A stretch of 64,000 nt of DNA from Stentor roeselii (taxonomy: Eukaryota; Ciliophora; Heterotrichea; Heterotrichida; Stentoridae). The notes beneath the pieces are model-generated. The model ran no database searches. It was not told the DNA's origin and saw only the letters and a program-made list of their open reading frames with translations. How positions within the stretch are numbered: the stretch's first letter is position 1; every line of letters starts with the position of its first letter. Positions 3,998 through 60,049 of the stretch are shown in pieces. The DNA lies in assembly GCA_006503475.1 (NCBI GenBank), contig RSEH01000212.1:21328-85327 (forward strand), in the 5' to 3' direction. The position numbers were made by a program, and so were the translations under genes.

Positions 3998-5611
3998 TCA
4001 ATTATGAGGAGAAAATAAAAATCTAGAAGAAGGGATCCTTATATTTGAATGACGTGGTGAGGTTTTACAAGATTTACAATTACTGATAGGTGTGTTAGTC
4101 AATTTGCGATTTTCACAGTTTTTCATGTAAAACTCTTTGTAAAACTTTAACTCTTTTTGTAGCTTGTCTATAAAAATCATCAGTTGTTGTTTTTCTCGAT
4201 GTTCATTATTAAGTAAAGTCAAGGTTCTTTCAACTTCCGCTGTTTTTATCGTTTTATGAACAGAACAATGCAAAAAGTTGATTCTTGACATGACTGACAA
4301 AAAACTGTTCATTTCTTGTAAAGACTGATCAGAAGTGACTTTAAAGATGAAGTGAATCTGAGATGATTGGGTCAAAGTCATTGATAAAGAACTGGTCAAT
4401 GCTGAGTTCCTGATCGGAATGTACTTTTGGTTTGACTTTATCGCTGAAAGACAGGCTTCTAGAGTTGATAACGCTTTGTTCACTTGAAGAGACTCTTTCA
4501 TGTCAGTTGTTGCAACACCCAGTTCAGCGAATTGAATGCAAATATTGAGAGATTTTAAATGAACTGTTGTAATTGAATGAGAACTTAAGGACTTTTTTCT
4601 CATGTTTTCGAGATATTGAGATAAAATCGCTTTGATGTTGTCTTTAGTGAATGTTGATAAAGGTAGAGAGTCTAAGTGATACAGACTTGAATTTAACTTA
4701 AACGATTTTGACTCGTTTCCTGTCAGAATTTGTTGAAAAATCCTGATTTCAGTCTCTGGTGGAAGACTTTTATTGAATTTTTTCAGTAAAAACTTCAGCA
4801 TTTTCATTAAAATTGTGCTAAACTGGTTTGAATAGCTGATAAAACAACCTGACCTTTTATCTGAAAAGTTTCCAGAAAGACATTCAAAACCTTTTCTATT
4901 ATTTTCCCAAACATCTGAAAACTCAAAAGTTTTCTGGTCCTTTTTATTGATGTTGATCAAAGCCTTCTTTCCAGAGACTTGAAAGTTTTCAGAATTCGGG
5001 ATATCTTGAAAATCAAGGAAAAATTTGATAAAACCGTCAAAGCAAAGATGTCTCGGAATGTGTTTAAGTCGTTTACTGACAGGCGAGTCTATCAAGATCT
5101 TCCCAGTCATCTGAATTCCAAGTTTTCCTCCTTTTTTTACTTCTAAATCAGTCCTCATTTCATTAAACTCATCTTTAAGTCTTTGAATTTCTTCTTCTTT
5201 TTTTAAAGCAACTACTTCCAATTCTTCTTTATACAAAATCGCATTTTCAGCTGCTTCGACAAGCTTTTCTTCTAAGGCTTGTCTGGAATGTTCTAAGATT
5301 CTTGCAGAGTTTTCCCAGTAGTCGTTCAGGTCTTCCAAGCGGCGACGATCTTGAAGGATTTGTTTGATTTGTGACTTGTTTTTATCGTTTTCGTTTAGAA
5401 GAGAGTCGGTTTCTTGGTTGGACTTTTGAAGACGATTTTTAAGGTCTTCGATTTTTGATTTAAGATCGTTGTTTTCGATTAATGTTAATGAAAGCTGGGC
5501 TTCTTTGTATTTTAACTCGTTTTCGAGCTCTTCTTCGTATTCTTGAGATTGTAGCTTGAATTCTAGTAACTCTTGCTTTGCGTTAAGCAGACTGGCGGTT
5601 AGGTCTGACAT
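3998..5611 (-). CDS. NudE-type coiled coil fused to a degenerate kinesin motor-like domain
   Basis: The 537-residue protein is read from one uninterrupted frame. Residues 1-165 are coiled coil and follow NudE/NDEL1 order: an E-LLEF-x5-E-EEELE start, ENNDLKSKIEDLKNRL, a LEDLNDYWENS segment, an EEKLVEAAENAILYKEELE segment, and EIQRLKDEFNEMRTDLE. Residues about 225-447 read like the back half of a kinesin motor: KTFEFSDVW (KxFxFDxVF), ENMRKKSLSSHS at 335-346 in place of switch I NxxSSRSH, FAELG near 361 in place of DLAGSE, NKALSTL at 378-384 for NKSLSaL, and YIPIRNSALTSSL at 397-409 for HIPYRNSKLTxLL. The P-loop position (near 255-268) has no GxxxxGKT. The product is probably unable to bind ATP, comparable to the yeast Kar3 partner Vik1. 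Residues 465-500 form another coil. Confidence 0.6.
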   Translation of the reverse strand: MSDLTASLLNAKQELLEFKLQSQEYEEELENELKYKEAQLSLTLIENNDLKSKIEDLKNRLQKSNQETDSLLNENDKNKSQIKQILQDRRRLEDLNDYWENSARILEHSRQALEEKLVEAAENAILYKEELEVVALKKEEEIQRLKDEFNEMRTDLEVKKGGKLGIQMTGKILIDSPVSKRLKHIPRHLCFDGFIKFFLDFQDIPNSENFQVSGKKALININKKDQKTFEFSDVWENNRKGFECLSGNFSDKRSGCFISYSNQFSTILMKMLKFLLKKFNKSLPPETEIRIFQQILTGNESKSFKLNSSLYHLDSLPLSTFTKDNIKAILSQYLENMRKKSLSSHSITTVHLKSLNICIQFAELGVATTDMKESLQVNKALSTLEACLSAIKSNQKYIPIRNSALTSSLSMTLTQSSQIHFIFKVTSDQSLQEMNSFLSVMSRINFLHCSVHKTIKTAEVERTLTLLNNEHREKQQLMIFIDKLQKELKFYKEFYMKNCENRKLTNTPISNCKSCKTSPRHSNIRIPSSRFLFSPHN

Positions 5612-32437: not shown

Positions 32438-35400
32438 ATGTCTTTTCTCGCAACAACCTACTGCAGTTCAAACCACGGAAGAAACCAACTAGTCAAAAAA
32501 GTCCAAAACCCCCGTCGAAGACCAGTTCCTCGAAAAAAACCAGTCCAAGGTCCAAGCAATTCATTTCATTTGAACCTCTCTTCTCAAATTTTGAAAAATT
32601 CCAGAAGTGTCTCTAGAGACCGAGCGCGGAATCTGTCAGTGAACAACTACACCCCCAATAATAGAAGAAGCCTCAGCATTCACTTTTTCGGCCTTAACAG
32701 TTCTGGAAAGTTTTCTTGTTCAAGTGCCTTGAGAGATGGACTTGAATATGAAGATGGGTTTAAAGCTGAAATGATTGAAAATTGGGTCGCTAAAGCTAAA
32801 GTTGATATAAAAGCTGCTGCTTTTGAAACTGCTTTGAAAGAGTTGAATAAAGTTCTTAAAATTTGTCAGAATCATTTAAATGCGCTTTATTTGAGAAGTA
32901 ATTGCTTTATGAGTTTGGGTAAACATAAAATGGCTATACCTGACTTGTTGAGTATTGTGCAGGAAAATGCTGGTTTTGATAAACATGTTTATATTGCTTT
33001 GGCTGTTTGTTTTGTGGAAGTTGATGATGTGAATACAGCTATTCGGCAGTTAAGTAAGTGCATTGAAATTTTCCCGAATTTCTCTGAAGGGTATATAAAT
33101 AGAGGAATTCTTTATAACAGACAACAAAGATGGGATAAAGCCTTGAACGATTTCAAGCAAGGCATACAGATAAACAAGAAAAAAGGTACCCCGTATATTG
33201 GGCTAGCCGATACCCTGCTGGGAATGGGTGACACGAAATATGCCTTAGCACTTTTAGAGAAGGCCTTTAACGACCCTAAGTCATACCCAGCAGCGCTGCT
33301 TAAGCGTGGAAAGATTTTCTTTGAGCAGCAGCATTTTGCCTCAGCATTAAAAGACCTGGACCAGGTACTTCAATCACAGAGCGAAAATGTTGAGGCCTTT
33401 TACTACCGAGCCTTTGCATTGCTAGGGCTAAACCGAATAAGCGACGCAGCCTTATCCTTAGAACAAGTAATAAAATACGACACTTCCAAGAACTACGTAG
33501 GGGCCGCAATTTACAACCTAGGCGCAATAAAGATCAAACAACGTGACTACTACGGCGCAATGTACACCTTCAAACGAGGAGTCGACATGGGTCTCGAGAT
33601 CGAAGAGCAAAAAGTTCTAAAACATTACGTCGAAGCCATTCTCTGCCTAATGAAGCGAAATTTCAAGGAAGGTCTCAACATTTTAACCAAAATCATAAAA
33701 AGCAAAAATCCTTTAATCCAAGAGTACATCGGAAACTGTTACGCTTTTCGAGGTTACGCTCATGCAGCTTTAGAAAACCATGAAAAAGCAGTCCAAGACC
33801 TAACCACAGCAAGTGGCCTTCAAGTTTTAGACGGTTCTTCAGAGTTCAATTTATTAATATCAAAAGCAGTGTTACTTTCACTTCGAGAAAGTGAAAATTC
33901 TCTGAAACTTCTGTCATCAGCAAGTAAAATTTTCCCGAATAGCATCGAGCCGAAGGTATACACAGCAGCTATTAACTTTTCTTTATGTCAATCAATGAAA
34001 AAGCCGGAATTAGCAGAGATTAGTAAAGAATTACTTGATGAGTGCATTAAAGTCAGGGAAAGTGAAAGTGATTTGTTCTTTTTTAGAGGAGTTGTGAATT
34101 ATTTTTTGGGAATGATTAAAGAAGCTATTGAGGATATTGAAACTGCGATTGATAAAGCAGAGGATAACCAGCCTGAACATTTCTTTGCTAGAGGGGCTTG
34201 CTCGGCTAGGCTTAAAATGTATAAAGAAGCCAAACAGGATTTCGCTATTGCACTGCAGCTTAATGAAAAGTTTGCTGATGCGTTTTTGTTTAAGGGAAGG
34301 TGCCATTTTATTATGGATGAAATTGATCAGGCTTTTGAAGACTTTCAGAAACTTACTGTTATGAAACCGGATGACCCGGAAGTTCATATTTTAGGAGGGA
34401 ATTTGTTGTTGCTTACTGGGTCTACTGAAAAAGCTATGCAGGCATATTCGAATGCTACTAATGCAAGACCTACTGTTGAAGGGTTCATTCATAAAGCCAA
34501 AACATTCTTAATCCTCGAAAATCTTCCAGAAGCCCTTCAAGAGCTCAAAACCTGTTTCAAATACTTTCCCGTTCCATCAGTAAGTTTCGACATCGAAGTT
34601 CTAGAAATCCTTCTAAAAGCTCACTCAAAAGACAACCTAAAGCAAAGCCTCTTAAAAAGTCTAAACCACTTAAACACAATTCTATCTTACAAGCACGAAG
34701 GAAGTATTTGTAAAAACTTACAAATCCACTGGTTTAAAGCTGTTTTCCTATTCTTCTTAGGTGACTTCCAAAAGTCCAAAACCGAGTTCAAGTCTTCAAT
34801 CTTACTCAACGACGACTCTGACGACGAAACAATTGACAGAGAGACTTTAGAGATCGGTTACAACACAGCTCTTATCTACATCCTCGGCGACTACCACGAA
34901 GCCGCTTACAACAGATTAAACGAAATCGTTTACTACCTCGAAGGAAAAGACCGGGGAAAAGTCCTGCTGATTATGTCAGTTCTTCAATTGGGCCTTAACC
35001 AAAAGTCCACTTCGAAAAACTTGATTCAAGAAGCCAGCAAGTTCGACCCTGAGATAGTAAAAATCTTTCAAGAAAGGAAAAGTGATATAAAAGTCCTTCC
35101 TTTGTCAAGTGCTTCGAAATATGCTTCAGTTTTTCCAATGGCGAAAGTAAAAATTGCTGATTGTCAAGCATTGCTTTTAAGACCGAGTTTTAACCTGCCT
35201 AAAGGAGATATGCCGAAAATGGACTTTGGAGTTGAAAGTCAGGTACTTGCTAGGTTTCATGTTAAACATGTGAAGTGCAGACCTGAAACTCCTTGGCTTA
35301 ATCGGGTTAAAGGAACTATTCAGTTTACTGATGAAATTCAGAATATTGAAACGGAAAGTGTTGCTGATTCGAATGATGAAGAAGCTTTAATTGAAAGGTC

Positions 35401-35536
35401 GGCGGAGTTTAATTCTTATAGTACTATGAGGAAGTATAAGTCTGAAAGCATTTCTTTGCATGAGCAGGAGGTGTCGAATAATTCGGACTCGGATACCTCG
35501 GAAAGCTCGAATTATGATGATTTTGTATTTGCTTAA
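32438..35536 (+). CDS. Large TPR-repeat protein, 1,032 aa
   Basis: Residues about 110-900 are an array of tetratricopeptide repeats. Typical helices include ALKELNKVLKICQNHLNALYLRS, AIRQLSKCIEIFPNFSEGYINR, ALNDFKQGIQINKKKGTPY, ALKDLDQVLQSQSENVEAFYYRA and AKQDFAIALQLNEKFADAFLFK, with W/L/G/Y/A/F/A/P at TPR positions. The N-terminus (1-100) is basic; the C-terminus is acidic and Ser-rich. TPR arrays scaffold protein complexes; many long ones in ciliates are ciliary, but the sequence shows no decisive ortholog. It starts 8 nt after the papain-family stop. Third-position base composition switches several times along the gene (for example near 34495). Confidence 0.88.
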   Translation: MSFLATTYCSSNHGRNQLVKKVQNPRRRPVPRKKPVQGPSNSFHLNLSSQILKNSRSVSRDRARNLSVNNYTPNNRRSLSIHFFGLNSSGKFSCSSALRDGLEYEDGFKAEMIENWVAKAKVDIKAAAFETALKELNKVLKICQNHLNALYLRSNCFMSLGKHKMAIPDLLSIVQENAGFDKHVYIALAVCFVEVDDVNTAIRQLSKCIEIFPNFSEGYINRGILYNRQQRWDKALNDFKQGIQINKKKGTPYIGLADTLLGMGDTKYALALLEKAFNDPKSYPAALLKRGKIFFEQQHFASALKDLDQVLQSQSENVEAFYYRAFALLGLNRISDAALSLEQVIKYDTSKNYVGAAIYNLGAIKIKQRDYYGAMYTFKRGVDMGLEIEEQKVLKHYVEAILCLMKRNFKEGLNILTKIIKSKNPLIQEYIGNCYAFRGYAHAALENHEKAVQDLTTASGLQVLDGSSEFNLLISKAVLLSLRESENSLKLLSSASKIFPNSIEPKVYTAAINFSLCQSMKKPELAEISKELLDECIKVRESESDLFFFRGVVNYFLGMIKEAIEDIETAIDKAEDNQPEHFFARGACSARLKMYKEAKQDFAIALQLNEKFADAFLFKGRCHFIMDEIDQAFEDFQKLTVMKPDDPEVHILGGNLLLLTGSTEKAMQAYSNATNARPTVEGFIHKAKTFLILENLPEALQELKTCFKYFPVPSVSFDIEVLEILLKAHSKDNLKQSLLKSLNHLNTILSYKHEGSICKNLQIHWFKAVFLFFLGDFQKSKTEFKSSILLNDDSDDETIDRETLEIGYNTALIYILGDYHEAAYNRLNEIVYYLEGKDRGKVLLIMSVLQLGLNQKSTSKNLIQEASKFDPEIVKIFQERKSDIKVLPLSSASKYASVFPMAKVKIADCQALLLRPSFNLPKGDMPKMDFGVESQVLARFHVKHVKCRPETPWLNRVKGTIQFTDEIQNIETESVADSNDEEALIERSAEFNSYSTMRKYKSESISLHEQEVSNNSDSDTSESSNYDDFVFA

Positions 35537-35755: not shown

Positions 35756-36799
35756 ATGTCCAAAAAACTAGGGGATGTTGTTTGGGCCAAAGTCTCTGGA
35801 TATCCAGAATGGCCAGGAATTATCTCAAAGTTAGACGGAAGTCAAGCCACTGTCCATTTCGTTGGAGACAACACTCAGTAATTTTTAGCCAGCACCTTGA
35901 AAGATATTTCAAAATTGAAGAATTTTTCAGAAAATAAGCTAAAAAAAGCTGATAGATGGCTCACTAAAAGTTATAAAGCAGCATCGGCCTTGCAACCACC
36001 AGTGTCTTTAGAAGAATTGAAAGAGATCAACAGTCGAATAATCGCTAAATTCCAAAACTCCGCTCCAAAAGAATCAAAATCCCCAGAAAAATCCGGAAAA
36101 CAAACAAAACAATCAAATCAAGAAAAACCAGAAAACTCCAGATACCCCGAAGAAAGTTTCGAGGAAAAACTGCGAACCTTATACTTAAAGCTCGACAAGA
36201 AAATCTCAAATTCTCTCGAAACCCCAGAATCAAGAAGAACGCGTTTACCAGCCCTTAAAAAAAGTGCAGAAATTCTAAATTCATTCACAATGCAAAACTA
36301 CAACCAAAACAAAACTTACTCAATAGAGGACATCTTAGAAATCATCGAAAAAATCACAGATCTCGAATATTCAAAGAAACTTCTTCATTGCTCAGGAATA
36401 ATCCGGATTTTAAAGTACTTTAAATCATTTTTAGCTGATTCCAGTGACCAAGAGGTAAAGAAACTAGTAAAACTCTCAGATAAACTTTTACAACATTTCA
36501 ACAAACTTCTGGTAATGAGTGAGTTATTCGAAGGAAATTCTAAAAACGATGAAAATCACTCAGAAAAAGTGAAGATGCGAGGAGAGATGCTTAAAGTTCT
36601 TTCTGATAAAGGTTTTAGTGGCGCTTCAGGTTCAAAACAAATGAAAAACATTGAGTCCAAGTTGAAAGAAATGGACCCAAGTGAAGGAAAAGTTTATCTA
36701 GAAAAATATTCTTATTTGATAAAAGAATTTCAAAGATCAACCAGCTTGTCACTTGAGGACCTTACTCAGCAGGGCTTTGTTTTTCTTAATAATAGTTAA
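35756..36799 (+). CDS. PWWP plus TFIIS N-terminal-like chromatin protein (LEDGF/HDGF-like)
   Basis: With a 15-nt intron (35878-35892) removed, the 342-residue frame opens with a PWWP domain (about residues 1-75: GDVVWAKVSGYPEWPGII, then VHFVGDNTHTLKDI). PWWP domains bind methylated histone H3 tails, usually H3K36me. Residues about 120-240 form a helical domain that resembles the TFIIS N-terminal/LEDGF integrase-binding-domain fold (LYLKLDKKI, RLPALKKSAEIL, LHCSGIIRILKYF). This pairing matches LEDGF/HDGF family layout. The start is the ATG at 35756, with GATTATAAAA before it. The TAA overlaps the ATG of the next gene by one base. Confidence 0.85.
35878..35892 (+). other. 15-nt intron of the PWWP gene
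   Basis: The sequence is GTAATTTTTAGCCAG. An AG already occurs at position 11, but only the AG at position 15 restores the frame (Asn-Thr-His-Thr-Leu across the junction). Confidence 0.92.
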
Positions 36800-38292
36800 T
36801 GAAAATCTGTTCAGGGTACTCGACATGGTCGCTTCGAAGACAGCTTCAAACAATTTTTATCACAATCTACTCGATTCTTATCTCTCTTTATGTTTTAATG
36901 ACTGTGCTACAGTTGAGTTGGCTTGAAAATTATTTGAATGAGAACTCTTATGATGTTATTAAAGGGAACATGATTGACCAGTTGAAACTTATTTCAGATT
37001 CAGAAGTTCTTCATGTTATGATTGGAATAGAACGCATTCAGAACCTTGTCTTGATGAGGGCATTAATGGTTGAAGTCACTTTAGGATTTAGCTCGGTAAG
37101 TAACAATTACTTTGAAAAAGCGACTGCAATTAATTCAAAAAAAGTTGGCTACACTACTTTTAATTATTCATATGGGTATCATTCAAGATTTAGCGATTTA
37201 AGTGAGGAAGGGGAGGATATTGTTTCAAGAATGGCTGGGTTGAATCCGATTCTTGGAACTTTATTTGAAGAGACCATGACTTCAATTTATGAAGGGTTTT
37301 ATACTGATGAAATTCTTAATTTTAGTCCTTTAGTGTACTTTGATGATTCAAGTTACTCTCCTTTGAATCGTGAATGGTTTTATAAAGCAGTTGATACACC
37401 TAAATTATTGATATCGACTGAGCCTTATTTCGACTATACGACTAATCAACTTATAATCACTGTCTCGAAAGCGATTTTAAAGAATTCGACTGCCTTCGGA
37501 GTTGTTGCTGCTGATATTAGTATTGCTCAATATACTAAAACACTCAGTAATATTAGAGTCACTTCGAGTGGAAGAGTTTTTCTAGTGTCTGCTGGGGGAA
37601 TTATTATGAATCCGCATCCTTCTTGGGAAAAGCTTAGTATTTATCGAATTTATAATGAATCTTTAACTGGGATTAAATATAGTGTGTGGGAAGAAATGAA
37701 GAAACAAAAATCTGGAAGTGAATTTGAAATGGATATTACAGGGTTTGGAAGGTGCTTTCTTATTATTAATATCATCAAGTTCGGTAATGAAACTCAGTAT
37801 TTTATGTTTTCAGTTATTCAAAAGAGCAGTATTCAATCTCCTACAAAGAAACTTGAAGATTCTTTTAAAAAAATTTATAATTATTTGTTTTGGAGTGTTA
37901 TTATTATTTCTGCGATTTTTCTTTTGATTTCTATTGTTTTGATTTATTATTTTGCTAGAAGCGCTACCAAGAAGTTCAGTATGATTAATCAAATTTTAGA
38001 AAAAGTCAAAGGTAGAGCGTGTTTTCAGTATATTACTAGAAATTGTTCTTTTGAAGATATAAAAAAAAATGACTCAGGTGTTAAAACCCTAGTTGAAAAC
38101 TGTGAAGAAAAAATAAATTTCTTAACAGAAAAAGAGCAAAACTTCAAATATTTCAAATGGGATCAAACACGTCCAAGTAATGCAATGCTTCATTCAAGAT
38201 GGAAAAGAAAAATATATCCTTTCAACAAATACTCTGAGAAAGACCCTCACTGGAACCGAGCAATTGACGAGATTGGAAAATTAGTAGGATAA
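36799..38292 (+). CDS. Cache-domain membrane receptor, copy 1 of 3
   Basis: The 497-residue protein has one membrane span at about 18-40, a large outer domain, a second span at about 360-386 and a cytosolic tail. The outer domain reads as a double Cache ligand sensor: YSPLNREWFYKAVDTP, ISTEPYFDYTTNQ, ITVSKAIL, FGVVAADISIAQY and GRVFLVSAGGIIMNPHPSW. Cache domains bind small molecules such as amino acids outside the cell. No kinase, cyclase or methyl-accepting module follows; instead the tail ends in a motif shared with the next two genes (YFKW..TRP, W, YPFNK, W). Its ATG overlaps the stop of the PWWP gene (TAATG). Confidence 0.8.
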   Translation: MKICSGYSTWSLRRQLQTIFITIYSILISLYVLMTVLQLSWLENYLNENSYDVIKGNMIDQLKLISDSEVLHVMIGIERIQNLVLMRALMVEVTLGFSSVSNNYFEKATAINSKKVGYTTFNYSYGYHSRFSDLSEEGEDIVSRMAGLNPILGTLFEETMTSIYEGFYTDEILNFSPLVYFDDSSYSPLNREWFYKAVDTPKLLISTEPYFDYTTNQLIITVSKAILKNSTAFGVVAADISIAQYTKTLSNIRVTSSGRVFLVSAGGIIMNPHPSWEKLSIYRIYNESLTGIKYSVWEEMKKQKSGSEFEMDITGFGRCFLIINIIKFGNETQYFMFSVIQKSSIQSPTKKLEDSFKKIYNYLFWSVIIISAIFLLISIVLIYYFARSATKKFSMINQILEKVKGRACFQYITRNCSFEDIKKNDSGVKTLVENCEEKINFLTEKEQNFKYFKWDQTRPSNAMLHSRWKRKIYPFNKYSEKDPHWNRAIDEIGKLVG

Positions 38293-38295
38293 TAA

Positions 38296-39807
38296 ATGGG
38301 ACTTAAACAAGAATTCAGTAAACTTGACCTTTCAAGGCAAATCCAGTTAACCTTCGTTGTTTTTATCGTAATTCTTTCTGCTATCATGGTCACTATCACA
38401 AAACTTCAACTCACTTGGCTGGAAAAAGAAGTCCATTCCCAGGCGAAAGATGAAATTGAAGAAAGTGTCTTCGAAAAAATGAGAATTTTGGCAAAGTCTC
38501 AATCAGAGTTCATAGAAAATGAGTTTAAAAATTATATCAAACTTGTTCATGTTATGAAAAATTTGACTGAAACTGTTTTAGAAGAAAATTCGAAAGTTGA
38601 GAATTTTTTGAAGGAAACTATTCCGAAATATGCTACTTCGGTTCTTGAGGATGTAAAGGACTGGACTACTTTTGTTTATGGATCGAAGTATGGAGAAGCG
38701 AATGATGGTGAAGAGAAGGTATTGGTTTATGAGCTATCGAGACTTAACCCTGTTATTCAGTCTTTAAGAGCATCAACATATGTTAATATATATCAAGGAT
38801 TTGAGTTGAAGGAAATTTATAATAGGTATCCTGGCGTCAACTATGAGACAACCAGCTACACTCCAATAGTCCGAGAATGGTACTTCCGAGCTGCTGAAAG
38901 CCCTAAAGAAACAATCCTAACAGAGCCTTACATCGACCCACTAACCAACACCTGGGTATTTTCCACTTCAATCGCAATAAAAAACTCAACAAAAGACGTG
39001 ATCGGAGTAGCCGGGGCAGACATAACCTTGAAATCAATAACAGAAAAAATAACCCACATCAGTTTACTAGACGGTTACGAAATTCTCGTCACAGAAGCAG
39101 GAATGATTTTAACTAAACCAGCGAGTTGGAACATTGAAGAAACAGCGCGAATTTATGATACAAGTGAAACAGGTTTTTCTTATGAACTTTGGGAAAAAGT
39201 GCTGAAAAGTACCCCAGGTGATAGTTTTGACTTTCAAGATTTGAATGGAACTGATTATTTCATGGTAGTTGATCATATTTCTCCTTTTCAATACAGTTCA
39301 AATGTCACACATTTTGTTTTACTTTTCGTGAATAAGCAGAAAGTAAAAAAACCTGTTGATGATTTGGATCATCAATTTAGAAATATCAATGAAATCATGT
39401 TTTGGGTTGTTATTAGTATTACTTCAGGTGTTATTGTTATTTCATTTTTCCTTATTTACTTTCAGGTCAAGAGCACTATTGCCCAGCTTAGGACTATTGA
39501 GAAACTCTTTAGGAATATTATTAGAAGGTCTTTGTTCACTCGGGCGACTCGTGATGTGAATTTAAGGAAACTTGATTTTAGGAAAAGTGGAATTGAAGAA
39601 TTGGCTGAAGGGTGCAAGTATAAAGTTAAGAAAATCTCTGGGTTAGAAGAAAAGTTTAATTACTTCAAATGGGGACTTACTAGGCCGAAGGATGCGCATA
39701 TTTATTTTACCTGGACCAATAATGTGTTTCCATTCAACAAGCACTACGGCAAAAAAATCGACTGGCGAGAAAAGCTTAAAATGCTCGAAAAGCCAACTTT
39801 AAAGTAA
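38296..39807 (+). CDS. Cache-domain membrane receptor, copy 2 of 3
   Basis: The 503-residue protein is a paralog of its left neighbour. Spans lie at about 16-36 and 364-388. The Cache region shows YTPIVREWYFRAAESP, LTEPYIDPLTNTW, FSTSIAIKN, GVAGADITLKS and GYEILVTEAGMILTKPASW. The tail ends YFKWGLTRP, then WTNNVFPFNK, then DWREKL, matching copy 1. It begins just 3 nt after copy 1 stops. Ligand is unknown; the conserved WYF/W-x-R pocket segment around the REW motif is characteristic of amino-acid-type double Cache sensors, but binding residues cannot be assigned reliably by eye. Confidence 0.8.
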   Translation: MGLKQEFSKLDLSRQIQLTFVVFIVILSAIMVTITKLQLTWLEKEVHSQAKDEIEESVFEKMRILAKSQSEFIENEFKNYIKLVHVMKNLTETVLEENSKVENFLKETIPKYATSVLEDVKDWTTFVYGSKYGEANDGEEKVLVYELSRLNPVIQSLRASTYVNIYQGFELKEIYNRYPGVNYETTSYTPIVREWYFRAAESPKETILTEPYIDPLTNTWVFSTSIAIKNSTKDVIGVAGADITLKSITEKITHISLLDGYEILVTEAGMILTKPASWNIEETARIYDTSETGFSYELWEKVLKSTPGDSFDFQDLNGTDYFMVVDHISPFQYSSNVTHFVLLFVNKQKVKKPVDDLDHQFRNINEIMFWVVISITSGVIVISFFLIYFQVKSTIAQLRTIEKLFRNIIRRSLFTRATRDVNLRKLDFRKSGIEELAEGCKYKVKKISGLEEKFNYFKWGLTRPKDAHIYFTWTNNVFPFNKHYGKKIDWREKLKMLEKPTLK

Positions 39808-39816
39808 CATAAATAA

Positions 39817-41337
39817 ATGGGAAAGCAAGGTAAAGTAAGTTCACTCTTCGGAACCCTAAGCATATCATTGCAAGCCCAGCTTTTCTTGATAATCTGCTAC
39901 GTGATTCTCTGTTTTACGCTAATAATCATAACCTATTACCAACTCGACTGGCTGAGGGACACAGTGATTTCCAATTCCGAAGACTTCTTACAAGACAACC
40001 TAAGAAGGCAAATTAAAGCAGAAATCGCGCTGAAGTCTCAAACAGTCAAGCAAGTCTTTAACAACTCCGAAGAACTTCTTATGTCTTTAGTGATGCTGGA
40101 GCAACAGCTGCTTAAATCAACAATTTTCAAGTCTAAAAACCTGCCTCAAGATATGGAACTGGAATCTGGAGAGCTTTTCTATGAATCTGCTGTTGTTATG
40201 AGACAGGAAAATTTCGACTCGAAAGGTGAAAAAGATGAGAAAAGTTTGAGTTTTTTATCTGAAGCTTTTAGATCTTTTTATTATGAACCGTTTTTTTACT
40301 ATCAAACTGGATTTACTGGACAGGACAACTTAGCTTATCCAGGTTTTTACTTCGGTGAGCGAGACTACGACTATCAACTGAGGCAGTGGTTTTACAATGC
40401 CTCTGATTCGAAATTCTTGATCACGCAACCCCATTTTGATGAGTTTTTTCAGGATGTTAAAACTTTTTCATTTTCTAGAAAAGTTAAGAGCAGTGGCCAG
40501 GTCGCTATGCAACTGAAATTAAAACTCGATTCACTATTTCAGGAAGTTTTTCGCACCTATTCATTGAAACATGAGCAGCATTACATGGTTGTTTCTAATG
40601 ACGGTTTTATTTTAGCTATTTCAGATGACTGGGCAGGACGAAAAGACAAGATCATGAAAGTATTCAATGAAACAATCGGTATTTCATCAAAAAAATGGGA
40701 AAAAATCAAAGACAGTGACGATTTTGAAGAACTATTTAAATTCACCCGTCCTAAAAACCCTTATAAAGTAAAAAACAGCGACGAAGGCACTGAGTACCGA
40801 CTGATGAAAATCGATATAAAAGTGAATCCTTTAACTTTTTACTTAATTGTTTGTTACAGGTTCGAAGATCTTTCCGACCAAATCGACGACATCAGAGAAA
40901 ATTTCAACGAAACCTTCAACACGATCTTTTACATCATCCTCATCATCGGAATCATCATCGTCATCGTCATTCTCATAGTTGTCCGACTTGCCATCAGAGA
41001 CCTGGTGATCAAGTTTTTCGCCTTCGAAGCAGTCCTCGACAAGATTTTTTCAAGAGCTCTTTACAAAGACTCAACTCAAATGATGGACCTCAGCCAGTTA
41101 CTTGTAAAACCTGGAATGTTCAGTGATTTAATTTCTGCATTCGAGGCAAGAATGAGGCAGCTTCGTCAAAAAGAAGAAAAAAACTCTGACTTCTTCATGA
41201 AAAAAATCAAACCTCCTGAAACTTATCTTTACCTGGACTGGAAAAATAAAGTTTATCCTAAAGGCAACTCGATTAAGTCAAAGGTGGACTGGGTTGATTC
41301 TCTTAGAGCATTAAAAAAAAATAAGGATTATTTTTAG
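39817..41337 (+). CDS. Cache-domain membrane receptor, copy 3 of 3 (divergent)
   Basis: The 506-residue protein has the same layout: spans at about 24-44 and 367-392, a Cache-type outer domain (YDYQLRQWFYNASDS, ITQPHFDEFFQDV, HYMVVSNDGFILAISDDW) and the shared tail in weaker form (IKPPETYLYLDWKNKVYP, KVDWVDSLRAL). It is more diverged than copies 1 and 2: the GVxAADI segment of the Cache domain is not evident and a longer acidic insert precedes the REW-equivalent. It starts 9 nt after copy 2. The three genes form a tandem array created by duplication. Confidence 0.75.
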   Translation: MGKQGKVSSLFGTLSISLQAQLFLIICYVILCFTLIIITYYQLDWLRDTVISNSEDFLQDNLRRQIKAEIALKSQTVKQVFNNSEELLMSLVMLEQQLLKSTIFKSKNLPQDMELESGELFYESAVVMRQENFDSKGEKDEKSLSFLSEAFRSFYYEPFFYYQTGFTGQDNLAYPGFYFGERDYDYQLRQWFYNASDSKFLITQPHFDEFFQDVKTFSFSRKVKSSGQVAMQLKLKLDSLFQEVFRTYSLKHEQHYMVVSNDGFILAISDDWAGRKDKIMKVFNETIGISSKKWEKIKDSDDFEELFKFTRPKNPYKVKNSDEGTEYRLMKIDIKVNPLTFYLIVCYRFEDLSDQIDDIRENFNETFNTIFYIILIIGIIIVIVILIVVRLAIRDLVIKFFAFEAVLDKIFSRALYKDSTQMMDLSQLLVKPGMFSDLISAFEARMRQLRQKEEKNSDFFMKKIKPPETYLYLDWKNKVYPKGNSIKSKVDWVDSLRALKKNKDYF

Positions 41338-54270: not shown

Positions 54271-55734
54271 CTAATTGTATTCATATTGAGGGAATTCAGT
54301 CTTAATCTGCCTGATGAACTCAGCGATTCGTTCATCTTGTCCATCCCGATCCCTAAAAAACAAAACAGCTGAAAGAGGTCCTTTAGAGTACCCGATTCGA
54401 TTGAGCCATTCATAATCAAATTCAATTCCCAGCAACTTGAGTAGATCTCTTTGTGCAGAGTAAGAATCATAAACCCACAAAGAGTCCTTTAGTTGAGTCC
54501 TTAACCTTTCCTCGAGCCTGACACCTTCCCAGAGCTCTTCCTGAGTGAGATTGATCATTCCTCGGACCCACCTCAGTCCGATTTCAGCAGTGATTTCCAT
54601 ATCGGCTATAATTAACGAGTAGATCTTTGCCACAAAAGATAGGCCGGGGAGACTTGGATGAAATAGACTTTTGTAGAGAAGGACTGGAAGTTTTGAGTCG
54701 AGTGGATCGTATTTTAGAATTTCTTTTATCTCGTCACTTAGGTATTCTAGGTTTGTGTAGTATCCTGTTGCGGGAACTACTACTTCGGCAGGAATGAACT
54801 GTCCTCCTTCTAAGATGATGCCATTCTCGCAGTACTCCTGAACCTTTCCTCTAACAAACTCTACCTTCCCAGCTTTGACTGCATCATAATAATCCTCTTC
54901 AACAATCGGAATATTTACAAATTCATTGTCAATTTCTTGATCAGTAAGTCTAAAAGTTTCGCAGATATCCCCTGGGTTTCCTACCAGAGCCATAGTTGCT
55001 CTGACCATGATCGCATTTCGGGCAAGTGTGCATTCAATAGGAGCTGGTTCTGGTTCGGGAACAAAGTTGAAAAAGTAGAAGTCAAAGGGTAACCCGTTGA
55101 TCATCCTTGAGATTAAAGCTGATTGATGATTGTAGACTTGAGTCACTGATTTCGCAACTTTTACTGCTTCTGCTGTTATGTCTGAAGCACTGTAGCTTTT
55201 ACCGATTACAACTACTGACTTGTCTTTGAAAACTGATGGCTCTCGGTAGTAGGCTGAATGAATGACTGGCCCCACAAACTTTTCCCTATGTTTAATAGGA
55301 TCTTTAGGTTTACCCAAAAGGCCAGTAGCCAGTAGAACATATTTGAAAACTTTAGAAATAGTCTCATTTCCAATCTTATAAGTTACCTTATAAGCATCTC
55401 CTTCTTTTTCAACTAAATTAACAGTAGCATTAAATAAGAAATATTTCAACAGATCAAATTTTTCCACATAAGAGGAAACATATTCAGTGTAGGACTTGGC
55501 TGAAGGGAAAATTGGAGTTCCCTCATTCCAAAGATGGTCTGAAAATGACATTTCGTACTTGTTTCCATTTGTTTGGACTGAGTTCCAAACACCAACATTC
55601 TTGTCATCAGCTTTCCACAACCCTCCAAAAGTTGAAGACTTTTCAAGTACCACTGGCTTTAAGTTGTACGAAAGTGAAAGTTTGGCTGACAAAATACCTG
55701 CTGGCCCACCTCCCACAATGCAAACTTCTTCCAT
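54271..55734 (-). CDS. Flavin-containing monooxygenase, copy 1 of 3
   Basis: The 487-residue protein has the FAD-binding GxGxxG motif at the start (VCIVGGGPAGILSAKLSL), then KSSTFGGLW and the FMO-type second nucleotide-binding motif VVVIGKSYSASDITAEA for NADPH. The FMO-identifying FxGxxxHSxxYR appears as FVGPVIHSAYYR, and ATGYYTNLEYLSDEI is the late conserved segment. FMOs oxygenate N- or S-containing substrates using NADPH and O2. The substrate is unknown. It diverges from copy 2 across a 1.26-kb spacer, and the three copies sit together. TTAATAA precedes the ATG. Confidence 0.92.
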   Translation of the reverse strand: MEEVCIVGGGPAGILSAKLSLSYNLKPVVLEKSSTFGGLWKADDKNVGVWNSVQTNGNKYEMSFSDHLWNEGTPIFPSAKSYTEYVSSYVEKFDLLKYFLFNATVNLVEKEGDAYKVTYKIGNETISKVFKYVLLATGLLGKPKDPIKHREKFVGPVIHSAYYREPSVFKDKSVVVIGKSYSASDITAEAVKVAKSVTQVYNHQSALISRMINGLPFDFYFFNFVPEPEPAPIECTLARNAIMVRATMALVGNPGDICETFRLTDQEIDNEFVNIPIVEEDYYDAVKAGKVEFVRGKVQEYCENGIILEGGQFIPAEVVVPATGYYTNLEYLSDEIKEILKYDPLDSKLPVLLYKSLFHPSLPGLSFVAKIYSLIIADMEITAEIGLRWVRGMINLTQEELWEGVRLEERLRTQLKDSLWVYDSYSAQRDLLKLLGIEFDYEWLNRIGYSKGPLSAVLFFRDRDGQDERIAEFIRQIKTEFPQYEYN

Positions 55735-56992
55735 TTATTAACAGTCAATTCAGTAATTTAATTGAATAGAGATTAAAAATGAAAGTAAATCATTCTAAAT
55801 TAGGTTTAGGATACTCTTTTACTGTAGGGTGAATTAGATATTATAATTTAAATGACTTGAAGTTATTTTGTCTTATATTAACGAAGAAAATTTGATTGAT
55901 TTTTTGTTGTAATAGAATTTATAAATAACTCAATTTATAAATATTCGTACTTCAACAAACTTTTTCAATAATGCAAGGACATACACTAGATAAATATAAG
56001 TAAATAGGTACAATTTCCAGTGAATTATAAAAAACATTATGGGCTTTTATCTGAAATTTATATCTCATATGATTAAAAACTTGAAAATCTTAATATTCAG
56101 GCATTTATTCTAAATGGTTTTGCCAGACTCGAAATCATTTGATTTGATTTTATGAATAACACTCATGTCAAATTCTCTGGATATGTTCTAAAAAAGTTTT
56201 AGCTTATTGTAGAGTTTGGTTTGATATATTAATATAAGAATTTCAAGCCTATTGTTTATATAACATGATAATTTAACAAGATTAAGAGACAAAATTTTAA
56301 TCTGTTAGAAACTTTGAAATAATTATAGCATATTCCATAATAATCAGCAGAGAATTGATTTCGAGGGTAAAATATCAACTTCTGATAATAGATATCAGAT
56401 TTAGTGTTTTTATATCGAGATTCAATTATAATTAACGCTTAATTTTTCAAGTTTTCTATGATAATCATAATATTAGATAAGTATTCTAAGTACAAGTTAT
56501 TTGTATTGGCCTTCCATTTAATAAAAATAATCAATTGAGTTTGTTCAATCACCTAGATTATGAAGAATAGCATTAACTAATCGGCTTCTTTTCTAAATCA
56601 ACTTTATGGCTAAGAGATTTTATAATATTTACTAATCTCTCACAATTTGGTATAAGAATAAAAGAAAAGAATAGGAAAAGGAAAAGGGTTCATAAATAAG
56701 CCTAAGCTTTTTTTCTTCCTAAACTATTTTTTCATACTTACTTGATACGGCTTTGATCTAAAAATGCCAACTCAGAACTATATAATGTCCTTTTCTCTAA
56801 GAATCATAAAAACAAGTGAAAAACTCAATATTTCTCACATAAAATATTTAAAGAAATAGAGATTATTCAGATACTTAATATTCCTAAAAAACTTACAAGT
56901 AAAATCCTCAATAATCTACTTGAATCCTAGTTTAAAAAAAGTATAATAATTTCTGTTAAGCATACATTCCCTCTACCAATTCACCAATAAAA
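55735..56992. other. AT-rich spacer between divergent monooxygenase genes
   Basis: At 1,258 nt this is the longest gene-free stretch without a relic in the window. It has no open frame of note, no tRNA-like sequence and no clear repeat. It presumably holds both promoters. Confidence 0.5.
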
Positions 56993-58456
56993 ATGGAAGA
57001 AGTTTGCATCATAGGAGGTGGGTTATCAGGAATCTTATCTGCTAAACTGAGTCTTTCTTACAACCTGCAGCCTTTTGTCCTTGAAAAATCTTCAAGTTTC
57101 GGCGGTCTATGGAGAGGCTTCCCATCTGAAGTTGGGGTATGGGATTCACTTCACGTAAACCTCAGCAAATATGCGATGTCAATATCAGATCATCTCTGGC
57201 CTGAAGAAATTCAAGAATTTCCTTCATGCAAGGAGTATCTCTCATATTTATCATCTTTTGTTGAATCTCACAACCTTCTTCAGTACTTTCATTTTAACTC
57301 TGAAGTCATTTCAGTTTCTAAAGAGGGAAGTAATTATCGAGTAACGTATAAAAATGACATAGGATTGATTGATAAAATTTTCAAATATGTACTGATTGGT
57401 ATTGGGAACTACTCAAGACCTCGAGAAATGATAAAAAACAAAGAAATCTTTTCCGGAGAAACCCTTCACGCAGGTTACTACAGAGACCCATCAATATTCA
57501 AAGACAAAAACGTTGTAGTCGTCGGTAAAAGTTACAGTGCAGGAGACATCGCATTCGATGCTTTAAAAACAGCAAAAACCGTAACTCAAGTCTACAGAGA
57601 AAAGTCAGCTTGCGGTAAAAGATATTTACAAGGTTTTCCTTACGACTTCCTATTTTTCAACTTCGTGCAACAACCCGACGGTCTTCCCCTCGAATACACC
57701 TTATCCCGAAACGCAGAGATGGTGAAAGGCCTGATCCAAGCGACTGAAAATCCAGGAGAAATCGACCCAAACTGGGTGTTAACAGAAGAAGAAATCCAAT
57801 CAAAATTCATCACTTTTCCAGTCTCTTGCGACGAGTACTACGATGCAGTAAAAAATGGAAAAATCATCTGTATTCAAGGAAAAGCTGAAAAATTCACCGA
57901 GAAAGGGATTCTTCTTGACTCAGGTCAAGAAATCGAAGCGGATTTCGTGGTTTCAGCGACTGGGTATTGTTCGAATTATGATTTCTTAAGTGAGGAAATT
58001 AAAAATATTGTGAAATATGAACCTGAAGACCAGAAACTTCCAGTTTCGCTTTATCGAGGATGTTTTCACCCTGAACTACCTGGACTTGCTTTTGTTGGAA
58101 AGGTTTTTGCAGTGTTAATTGCCCAAGCGGAACTGTCTGTTGAAGTTGGACTCAGGTGGATCACTGGAATGATCCAAAAGACTCAGGAGGAAATCTGGGA
58201 AGGTGTTAGACTTGAAGAAAGACTTAGAAATGATATTAAGAGCTCGATGTGGGTTTATGATTTTTATGTATTGCAAAGGGAAATGATGGCACTTTCAGGA
58301 AATCAGGTGGATTATCAATGGCTTGAAGAGATTCAGTATACCAAGGGACCCTTGTCAGCTGTTGTTATGTTTAGGAATAGGGAAGGACAAGAAGAAAGAA
58401 TTCGAGAGTTTGTAAGACAAGTTAAAAGTAAATACCCAGAGTTTCCGTTTAACTAG
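56993..58456 (+). CDS. Flavin-containing monooxygenase, copy 2 of 3
   Basis: The 487-residue paralog has VCIIGGGLSGILSAKLSL at the start, KSSSFGGLWRGF, FSGETLHAGYYRD (FMO motif), VVVVGKSYSAGDIAFDA (NADPH site) and SATGYCSNYDFLSEEI. It is closest to copy 1, with identical length and nearly the same N-terminus. The gene is intact. Its third-position composition flips near 57950: 57661-57720 has 22 C and 10 G, while 57961-58020 has 2 C and 13 G. Confidence 0.92.
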   Translation: MEEVCIIGGGLSGILSAKLSLSYNLQPFVLEKSSSFGGLWRGFPSEVGVWDSLHVNLSKYAMSISDHLWPEEIQEFPSCKEYLSYLSSFVESHNLLQYFHFNSEVISVSKEGSNYRVTYKNDIGLIDKIFKYVLIGIGNYSRPREMIKNKEIFSGETLHAGYYRDPSIFKDKNVVVVGKSYSAGDIAFDALKTAKTVTQVYREKSACGKRYLQGFPYDFLFFNFVQQPDGLPLEYTLSRNAEMVKGLIQATENPGEIDPNWVLTEEEIQSKFITFPVSCDEYYDAVKNGKIICIQGKAEKFTEKGILLDSGQEIEADFVVSATGYCSNYDFLSEEIKNIVKYEPEDQKLPVSLYRGCFHPELPGLAFVGKVFAVLIAQAELSVEVGLRWITGMIQKTQEEIWEGVRLEERLRNDIKSSMWVYDFYVLQREMMALSGNQVDYQWLEEIQYTKGPLSAVVMFRNREGQEERIREFVRQVKSKYPEFPFN

Positions 58457-58594
58457 TTTAAAGTATTCAAAAATTCTAAAATTTAAATTTTTTTTAGGTT
58501 GTTTTGAAATTTTTGCAATTGGACTATTTACTGTTTGTTACTGAATTTTGATTCTTTGAATTGAAATTACTTGGTTGTAATTGTGGATGTAATT

Positions 58595-60049
58595 ATGGAT
58601 ATGGTTTGTATTGTTGGAGGAGGTGTTTCTGGAATTGTTTCGGCGAGAATTTGTTTGACTAGAGGTTTAACTCCAGTTATTTTTGATAAATCTTCGTCGT
58701 TTGGGGGTATCTGGCAGACTGATACTTCAATGATAGCGAAGTGGGATTCTCTAATTGCAAACCTTAGTAAATACACAATGACCCTTTCAGATCACTTATG
58801 GCCAGAAGATGTTCCTACTTTTCCATCAGGTGATCAATACTACGAGTACATTTCAGCATATATTCAAAAATTTGACCTACTTCGTTACTTTAGATTCAAC
58901 ACTGAAATTATTCAAGTCGAAATTGAAGAAAATGGGTATCAAGTCTTATATAAAAATCAACTAGGAATTTTTTCAAAGTTTTTTAAATACGTGATAATTG
59001 CGAATGGGAAATTTTCAAAACCCAGGAATTCAATAAAATACAGGGAAAGGTTCAAAGGAGAAAGTGTCTTTGCAGGGTTTTATCGAGATCCTAGTATATT
59101 TCAAGGAAAAAATGTGGTTATTGTTGGTATTGGGTACAGTGCCTGCGATATTGCACTAGAAGCAAGTAAATCAGCCTTATCAGTGACCCAAGTTCACAAA
59201 GGCAAATTCGTGAAACTAACTCGAACCCATGAAGGTATTCCCATAGACCTGATAAGTTTAAATTTCCCTTTACTTCACCAACCACAGGTTCTTTTCAACT
59301 CCTTACAAGAAAACACAAAAGTGATAAAATCTTTAATAACAGCCTTCGGCAATCCAGGAGAAATCCTCGAATCTCTGAGACTATCAGAAGAAGAAATAAA
59401 TTCAAGTTACATATCATTTCCAATAACATACGAAGAGTATTATCAATCTTTAAAGTCAGGCGAGATAAAACTTCAAGAAGGTCGAGCCGTCGAATACTGC
59501 ACAAGTGGAATAATCCTTTCTTCAGGTGTTACTCTTTCAGCAGATCTCATCGTTGATGCAACGGGTTATTCCACAAACCTCGACTTTCTAGGACCTAAAA
59601 TAAAGGAAATCCTTGATTTTGACCCGGAATTTCATCATCTTCCTGTCACTCTTTATCGTAGCTGCCTTCATCATCAGCTTCCAGGATTTGGCTTCGTTGG
59701 TAGAAATGTAAGCTTTTTAGTTGAAATCGCTGCTGAAATCGTCATTCAATGGATTACTCAAACTCTTCATGTTTCACTTCAGGATATTGAGGATGGCGTT
59801 AAGATGGAAAAAGAGTTTAGGGCTGAAAGTAACAGGCTGCCTTGGGTTTATACTAATGAAGGACTTATCAAAGATTTTATTATGGCTGCTGGAGTTCAGA
59901 TTAATTGGGAGTTGGTGGAAAAGCTTGAGTTTTCTAAAGGGTTTATTTCTAGTGTGTTTTATTTTCAGTTTGTGGAAGATCAAGAATGGATTGGGAGGGA
60001 GTATGTGAGGATGATGAAGAAAGATTTTCCTGGAGTTAGGTTTGGATAA
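58595..60049 (+). CDS. Flavin-containing monooxygenase, copy 3 of 3
   Basis: The 484-residue paralog begins MDMVCIVGGGVSGIV at the ATG at 58595; the frame extends eight codons upstream without an ATG. It keeps KSSSFGGIW, FKGESVFAGFYRD and VVIVGIGYSACDIALEA. It lacks the HS pair in the FMO motif (FAGFYRD instead of HAGYYRD), as well as three residues near position 370 compared with copies 1 and 2. It is the most diverged of the three. It follows copy 2 on the same strand by 138 nt. Confidence 0.9.
   Translation: MDMVCIVGGGVSGIVSARICLTRGLTPVIFDKSSSFGGIWQTDTSMIAKWDSLIANLSKYTMTLSDHLWPEDVPTFPSGDQYYEYISAYIQKFDLLRYFRFNTEIIQVEIEENGYQVLYKNQLGIFSKFFKYVIIANGKFSKPRNSIKYRERFKGESVFAGFYRDPSIFQGKNVVIVGIGYSACDIALEASKSALSVTQVHKGKFVKLTRTHEGIPIDLISLNFPLLHQPQVLFNSLQENTKVIKSLITAFGNPGEILESLRLSEEEINSSYISFPITYEEYYQSLKSGEIKLQEGRAVEYCTSGIILSSGVTLSADLIVDATGYSTNLDFLGPKIKEILDFDPEFHHLPVTLYRSCLHHQLPGFGFVGRNVSFLVEIAAEIVIQWITQTLHVSLQDIEDGVKMEKEFRAESNRLPWVYTNEGLIKDFIMAAGVQINWELVEKLEFSKGFISSVFYFQFVEDQEWIGREYVRMMKKDFPGVRFG

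Follow-up and report, generated by a model that had tools for sequence, protein, structure and literature searches.

The gene at positions 3998-5611 of a 64,000-nucleotide stretch of the Stentor roeselii genome (the window) raises the question of whether a NudE-type coiled coil is joined, in a single ciliate protein, to a kinesin-like head that has lost its ATP site, and, if so, what such a protein might do. The reading frame itself is unambiguous:

3998..5611, minus strand: complete open reading frame of 537 aa, encoding a NudE-type coil followed by a degenerate kinesin-14 head; present at full length once in the assembly

Heterotrich ciliates such as Stentor use the standard code and have introns of 15 nt. 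The frame is open in the standard code, and the 20 ORFs of at least 300 aa in the window end in TGA (3), TAG (7) or TAA (10). GT..AG stretches of 15-17 nt that could pass for hidden introns do exist in the gene, but the frame reads through with none of them taken out, and they were rejected.

The N-terminal part of the protein comprises three features:

5132..5611, minus strand: NudE/NDEL1-type coiled coil, residues 1-160
5525..5560, minus strand: segment aligned with the N-terminal region of NDEL1 around E48, on the side of the dynein intermediate chain, residues 18-29, with E26 as the equivalent of E48
5288..5344, minus strand: LIS1-binding-like block RRLEDLNDYWENSARILEH, residues 90-108, inside the best-conserved stretch of the coil, with the equivalents of NDEL1 E119 (E93) and R130 (R104)

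NudE and its relatives NDE1 and NDEL1 (Ndl1 in yeast) are LIS1-binding cofactors of dynein. A preliminary description had assigned the N-terminus to the NudE/NDEL1 coil specifically, rather than to a generic coil, and searches in both directions bear this out. With the 537-aa protein as sole query the best coiled-coil chain in PDB is NDEL1 (2v71; E=1.9e-4, residues 7-160), the remaining rows at E<0.1 being kinesins. A coil profile built from nine of the eleven family members introduced below (two turned up later) recovered NDEL1 with E=4.1e-15 over profile positions 6-160, followed by a second NDEL1 crystal at 4.3e-5 and by unrelated coils from 5.7e-5, which leaves a gap of ten orders of magnitude between NDEL1 and the best non-NudE coil in this family-profile search. 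Reciprocally, the five best places of NDEL1 in the 44.4-Mb assembly are all family members (E=1.0e-9 to 2.4e-4), the gene studied here being the fifth. Lower in the same search are C460 (E=0.0085), C146 (0.075) and C153 (0.42), and there is no row at E<=10 for C82, C324 and C50. Single-sequence structure prediction renders the coil as one helix (residues 3-157), with block pLDDT values of 77-92 for residues 1-100 and of 48-67 for residues 101-160.

The conservation of the coil peaks at the LIS1 site, where the two 15-residue blocks covering residues 91-120 have a mean share of 0.72 each, as against 0.41-0.59 in the nine other blocks. The column of NDEL1 E119 holds Glu in all 11 family members and that of R130 holds Arg in 10, with Lys in C146. 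At E48 of NDEL1, which we take to be a dynein-binding residue, eight of the 11 members including the 537-aa protein have Glu, with Ile in C82 and Gln in C153 and C324. PMC10511499 describes Ndel1 carrying E119A and R130A as unable to bind LIS1, and ascribes to the N-terminal glutamates of Ndel1 a role in dynein binding; the same LIS1-contact residues are reported, in PMC4450295, to diminish the LIS1 interaction in the fly protein. A competing explanation would see the coil as an ordinary kinesin stalk whose likeness to NudE is accidental. Coiled coils do match spuriously: many unrelated ones are retrieved by the family profile at E=1e-4 to 1e-2, and the unrelated coil of C344 (E=0.0038), which lies in another kinesin-bearing frame outside the family, outranks two family members (C460 and C146) in the NDEL1 genome search. 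Given the ten-order gap, the match in register over the LIS1-binding block, the five best places of NDEL1 and the invariant equivalent of E119, this explanation is already largely refuted, and we find it hardly credible. The coil of the 537-aa protein is homologous to that of NudE/NDEL1 over its whole length and keeps the LIS1-contact Glu and Arg equivalents; unlike in NudE/NDEL1, it is followed by a kinesin-14-type head, and the 537-aa protein shows no match to NUDE_C (PF04880) at E<=10. Across the assembly NUDE_C finds three weak places, none of them over the cut-off.

The remainder of the protein holds the degenerate head:

4166..4957, minus strand: motor homology domain, residues 219-482
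4808..4831, minus strand: P-loop position, residues 261-268, with SNQFSTIL in place of GQTGSGKT; 1 of 8 positions survives, and the Lys is gone together with each of the three Gly
4562..4597, minus strand: switch I remnant KKSLSSHSITTV, residues 339-350; it retains 3 of 7 majority positions but not the Arg of SSRSH
4517..4537, minus strand: switch II remnant, residues 359-365, IQFAELG for xQFVDLAGSE; 1 of 6 positions kept
4382..4501, minus strand: alpha4-L12-alpha5 segment, residues 371-410, including YIPIRNSALT; 19 of 38 majority positions kept, IPxRNSxLT among them
4190..4264, minus strand: post-alpha6 segment SVHKTIKTAEVERTLTLLNNEHREK, residues 450-474, aligning with the stretch of KCBP after alpha6

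That this region is homologous to kinesin motors emerged from several comparisons. The Pfam Kinesin model matches residues 368-437 with E=4.8e-9, its 36.1 bits exceeding the curated threshold of 29.3. A profile built from 28 non-family kinesins, of which 5 are PDB stretches and 23 come from the same genome, scores 34.6 bits at residues 363-510; shuffled controls, 1000 in all with 250 per protein for four members of the family, reach at most 4.6 bits. Profile-profile comparison of residues 161-510 by hhalign gave 95.7% and E=9.7e-9 against the same non-family profile, spanning residues 219-482, and 98.8% against a profile of the intact family members, on which alone shuffling was performed and on which all 15 shuffles of this stretch remained below 1%. 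Taken by itself, the front part of the head (residues 161-350) reaches 8.3 bits against the intact family (E of about 0.7), a value unmatched by any of the 937 shuffles listed out of 1000; this score is weak, and the front half is assigned mainly from collinearity. The motifs noticed in the preliminary description were all found in the order of a kinesin motor, namely KTFEF at 227-231, SLSSHS within 339-350, FAELG within 359-365, NKALSTL within 371-391 and YIPIRNSALTSSL within 396-410, and its view of a motor-like domain devoid of a P-loop holds as well. In addition to the losses listed above the RxRP strand is lost (1 of 8). The nucleotide pocket is gone, with 1/8 positions left in the P-loop, 3/7 in switch I and 1/6 in switch II, while alpha4-L12-alpha5, presumably the microtubule-facing segment, is better kept (19/38). 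A single-sequence model of the head has pLDDT below 50 across nearly all of residues 153-482. Kinesin homology without a nucleotide site is what the sequence points to, and the head of the 537-aa protein looks unable to bind ATP.

The same architecture recurs in the genome, and we recovered 11 genes with the NudE-type coil in the assembly. In seven of these (C323, C476, C460, C14, C82, C104 and C146) all motor motifs are present, with GQTGSGKT as the P-loop, and in three, namely the gene in the window, C153 and C324, the head is degenerate. Neither C153 nor C324 matches Pfam Kinesin at E<=1 and both lack the YRNS motif of loop 12, and their heads give hhalign values of 97.4% and 98.0%, respectively, against the intact family and of 31.8% and 19.0% against the non-family profile. 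In the eleventh gene, C50 (locus L028), the coil is followed by about 300 residues in which a kinesin head is not recognizable. Tried as a degenerate kinesin, this stretch yielded hhalign values of 0.4% with the non-family and 1.3% with the intact profile and was not counted as a kinesin head; against the three degenerate heads it gave 8.7% and a score of 28.1, the best of 30 shuffles scoring 20.2. C50 is possibly the furthest-decayed member or the carrier of a different domain. A presumed 15-nt intron (GT..AG, with an in-frame stop inside) lies near the 5' end of five of the seven intact members (L010, L011, L009, L013 and L014), and the frames of C14, C146 and four other members read without an intron.

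With respect to the class of the motor, a family profile built from nine of the 11 members retrieved kinesin-14 chains as its 20 best PDB matches, these being KCBP, Kar3 and its fungal equivalents, KIFC3 and Ncd, all of which we take to belong to the kinesin-14 class. When C476 is the sole query, KIFC3 and KCBP come first, and kinesin-2 (OSM-3) and a fungal kinesin-1 occupy the third to fifth places, making the kinesin-14 signal less clean than with the family profile. In a motor tree of 36 rows, from which C153, C324 and C50 were excluded, the seven intact members, the head of the 537-aa protein, three kinesin-14s from PDB and one KCBP-like kinesin of the same genome form one set (98/94). Within it the 537-aa head has the longest branch of the tree (6.53 changes per site) and its exact place is unsure; the coil tree likewise leaves the place of the 537-aa row unsettled. 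As judged from these comparisons, nearest affinity to kinesin-14 is a result for the family as a whole, which the 537-aa head joins on a long branch.

These relationships modify the earlier picture of a fusion between NudE and a pseudokinesin: both halves stand, but the idea of a single case does not, the protein being a degenerate member of an 11-gene family of which seven retain all nucleotide motifs. Since seven members of the family have intact heads and three have degenerate ones, and the 537-aa head groups with the intact members in the motor tree, coil and motor were probably joined before the ATP site was lost. No free-standing NudE was recognized in the assembly with the 537-aa protein, the coil of C476, C324, C50, NDEL1 and NUDE_C as queries; among the non-family matches of the C476-coil and NDEL1 searches, all at E>=0.0038, only C511 was read, a coiled-coil protein with no kinesin motor discernible by eye, and a diverged free NudE may be missed at this depth. 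Collections of prokaryotic and viral contigs, where no ciliate DNA is expected, gave 18 and 102 matches to the search pattern, respectively, and none of these was confirmed as a relative.

The disappearance of the motor pocket, together with the longest branch in the motor tree, could suggest that the gene is a pseudogene of an intact NudE-kinesin. Yet its 537-codon frame is open, its coil is 36-44% identical to the coils of the seven intact sisters, and in a neutral-drift simulation (substitutions only, 0.2 per site) codons 161-537 stayed open in 0 of 400 copies. Because no neutrally drifted copy kept this part open, the gene does not appear to be freshly dying, and we reject the pseudogene explanation on frame retention as highly improbable. 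As for the other degenerate members, C153 and C324 are sisters in the coil tree (100/100) that have kept their frames down to 45% identity, with a saturated pS of 0.80 against a pN of 0.36, and their heads (pN 0.351) and coils (pN 0.349) are equally constrained. On account of this excess of pS over pN, and of a head as constrained as the coil, we consider that members devoid of the nucleotide site have persisted under selection. It may nevertheless be that only the coil matters, the protein acting as a NudE away from microtubules while its former motor, unneeded or merely structural, is heading toward the state of C50. The graded series from intact motifs (seven members) through degenerate ones (the 537-aa protein, C153 and C324) to an unrecognizable head (C50) would accord with such a course, as would the loss of the YRNS motif from C153 and C324 and the weaker constraint on their heads than on those of the intact C14 and C146 (pN 0.351 versus 0.225). 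Both the 19 of 38 alpha4-L12-alpha5 positions retained by the 537-aa protein, with IPxRNSxLT among them, and the equal constraint on head and coil in the C153/C324 pair speak against it, and we judge it improbable.

The reading that we prefer, and to which we would give about an even chance, is that the gene in the window encodes a non-catalytic, microtubule-binding subunit of a ciliate NudE-kinesin-14 family, which carries LIS1 and is probably dimerized with a catalytic sister. From the domain identities, the family relationships, the loss of the pocket motifs, the retained LIS1-contact residues and the presence of a LIS1 gene, all of which can be read from sequence, we infer LIS1 binding, microtubule binding, a heterodimer and a direction of movement, as follows. 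The NudE-type coil would dimerize and bind LIS1, and probably also the dynein intermediate chain, and the head, having no nucleotide pocket, would act as a foothold on the microtubule and not as a motor. Its most likely partner through the shared coil would be one of the seven catalytic sisters, in the manner of Vik1 or Cik1 with Kar3, and the resulting minus-end complex with one engine would take LIS1, and hence dynein regulation, along or onto microtubules. A bridge between dynein regulation and a microtubule-binding head, as thus envisaged, fits the retained LIS1-contact residues.

Several observations bear on the partners that this reading calls for. The genome encodes a LIS1 ortholog, C273 (locus L061, 364-1605, minus strand), a protein of 413 aa that matches the PDB platelet-activating factor acetylhydrolase IB subunit beta, which we take to be LIS1, with E=2.1e-131. 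As counted on the alignment, C273 retains the equivalents of LIS1 R316 and W340, residues that, when mutated, leave Ndel1 binding strongly reduced or abolished according to PMC10511499. The family of the dynein intermediate-chain N-terminus (PF11540) gave no match and was equally silent in every control. Seven of the 11 members (C323, C82, C104, C146, C14, C153 and C324) have, starting 12 to 20 residues from the C-terminus, an S/T-x-I-P motif, presumably of the EB-binding type, which appears in 1 to 14% of trials when the tails of these seven are shuffled, and seven loci with an EB1 domain exceed the Pfam cut-off in the genome. The motif is absent from C476, C460 and C50 and is broken (IRIP) in the 537-aa protein:

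4025..4045, minus strand: C-terminal NIRIPSS, residues 523-529, near the position of the sisters' S/T-x-I-P, with the Ser/Thr lost

The proposed role has to be set against this broken EB-type motif, the unusable model of the head, its weak front half, its very long branch and the unsettled coil tree.

With regard to the dimer, the hydrophobic positions of the 537-aa coil follow the average pattern of the seven intact sisters with r=0.70, on an alignment made together with those sisters, and none of 159 circular shifts gives a value as high. As the hydrophobic positions are in register, mixed dimers with intact sisters would be permitted. The literature provides precedents: according to PMC9041303, Nde1 and Ndel1 are able to form mixed dimers together, and according to PMC4338441 the non-catalytic head of Kar3-Vik1/Cik1 serves as a foothold for the catalytic partner. 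The protein might instead pair with itself, as a homodimeric adaptor in which two dead heads, without a catalytic subunit, would anchor LIS1 and dynein on microtubules. Homodimers of Nde1 and of Ndel1 occur as well, according to PMC9041303, and the maintenance of frames in the C153/C324 pair down to 45% identity implies that members lacking the nucleotide site live on as a class. While the match of coil hydrophobic positions to the intact sisters allows for mixed dimers, nothing separates the two arrangements directly; we regard the self-paired adaptor as unlikely, if a serious contender to the heterodimer.

In its presumed mode of action the heterodimeric subunit is reminiscent of Vik1 and Cik1, having a kinesin-14 head with no nucleotide site beside a coil and catalytic relatives in the same genome. 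Unlike these, its nearest relatives are the NudE-kinesins of its own genome, suggesting that the two are separate. Vik1 and Cik1 are both missing from the names of the 47 PDB sequences that the 537-aa protein matches, and we know of no NudE coil in either. KCBP and KIFC3 are the closest to the motor of an intact sister, KCBP heads the family-profile list, and the post-alpha6 stretch aligns with that of KCBP. Unlike in KCBP and KIFC3, the family motor sits behind a NudE coil, and the 537-aa protein is devoid of the nucleotide pocket. KCBP possesses a MyTH4-FERM part, which was not seen in Pfam scans of the 537-aa protein or C14. The fungal orphan group pseudoKinesin-21 similarly comprises kinesin-like proteins outside the standard families, but in PMC5076506 it is described as currently unique to fungal taxa, and it is by this description only that it is set apart.

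NudE/NDEL1 is usually pictured as an independent protein, a tether through which LIS1 reaches dynein. On the present data it is a tentative possibility, somewhat short of an even chance, that NudE in this ciliate lineage occurs solely as the N-terminal half of kinesin-14-type proteins, in a multi-gene family that would combine LIS1/dynein recruitment with a second minus-end motor system in one polypeptide, and in several members of which the motor would have turned into a dead microtubule foothold. A NudE coil held covalently in kinesin-14s with both live-looking and dead heads would, if this is true, bring two minus-end transport systems together within a single molecule, and non-catalytic kinesin-14 heads would seem to have an origin separate from that of Vik1/Cik1. 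The split of seven intact to three (or four) degenerate members in a single genome would make the purpose of the dead head directly testable by head swaps on one coil. Among the matches listed in a literature search over titles and abstract openings no NudE-kinesin fusion is reported; most subscription journals and preprints lie outside this search, and absence is therefore unproven. Likewise, in 12 of 13 places of the NDE1/NDEL1 review PMC9041303 kinesins figure as motors and kinesin-14 as the exception that moves toward the minus end; a fusion is not mentioned.

The Pfam kinesin motor was found at no fewer than 122 places in the assembly (122 of 167 candidates scored), in a count whose rows omit the gene at 3998-5611, both C153 and C324, and all but two of the seven intact members. 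Elsewhere in the window, positions 32438-35536 encode a 1032-aa TPR protein with matches to TT21-type ARM repeats, possibly a TTC21-like protein of intraflagellar transport. Two groups of ORFs are also present: at 36799-41337 there are three neighboring ones in a row, of 497, 503 and 506 aa, and the first, the one tested, gave a match to a PDC-type sensor domain that takes its name from chemotaxis receptors; at 54271-60049 there are three of similar size (487, 487 and 484 aa), of which the two tested are flavin-binding monooxygenase-like.
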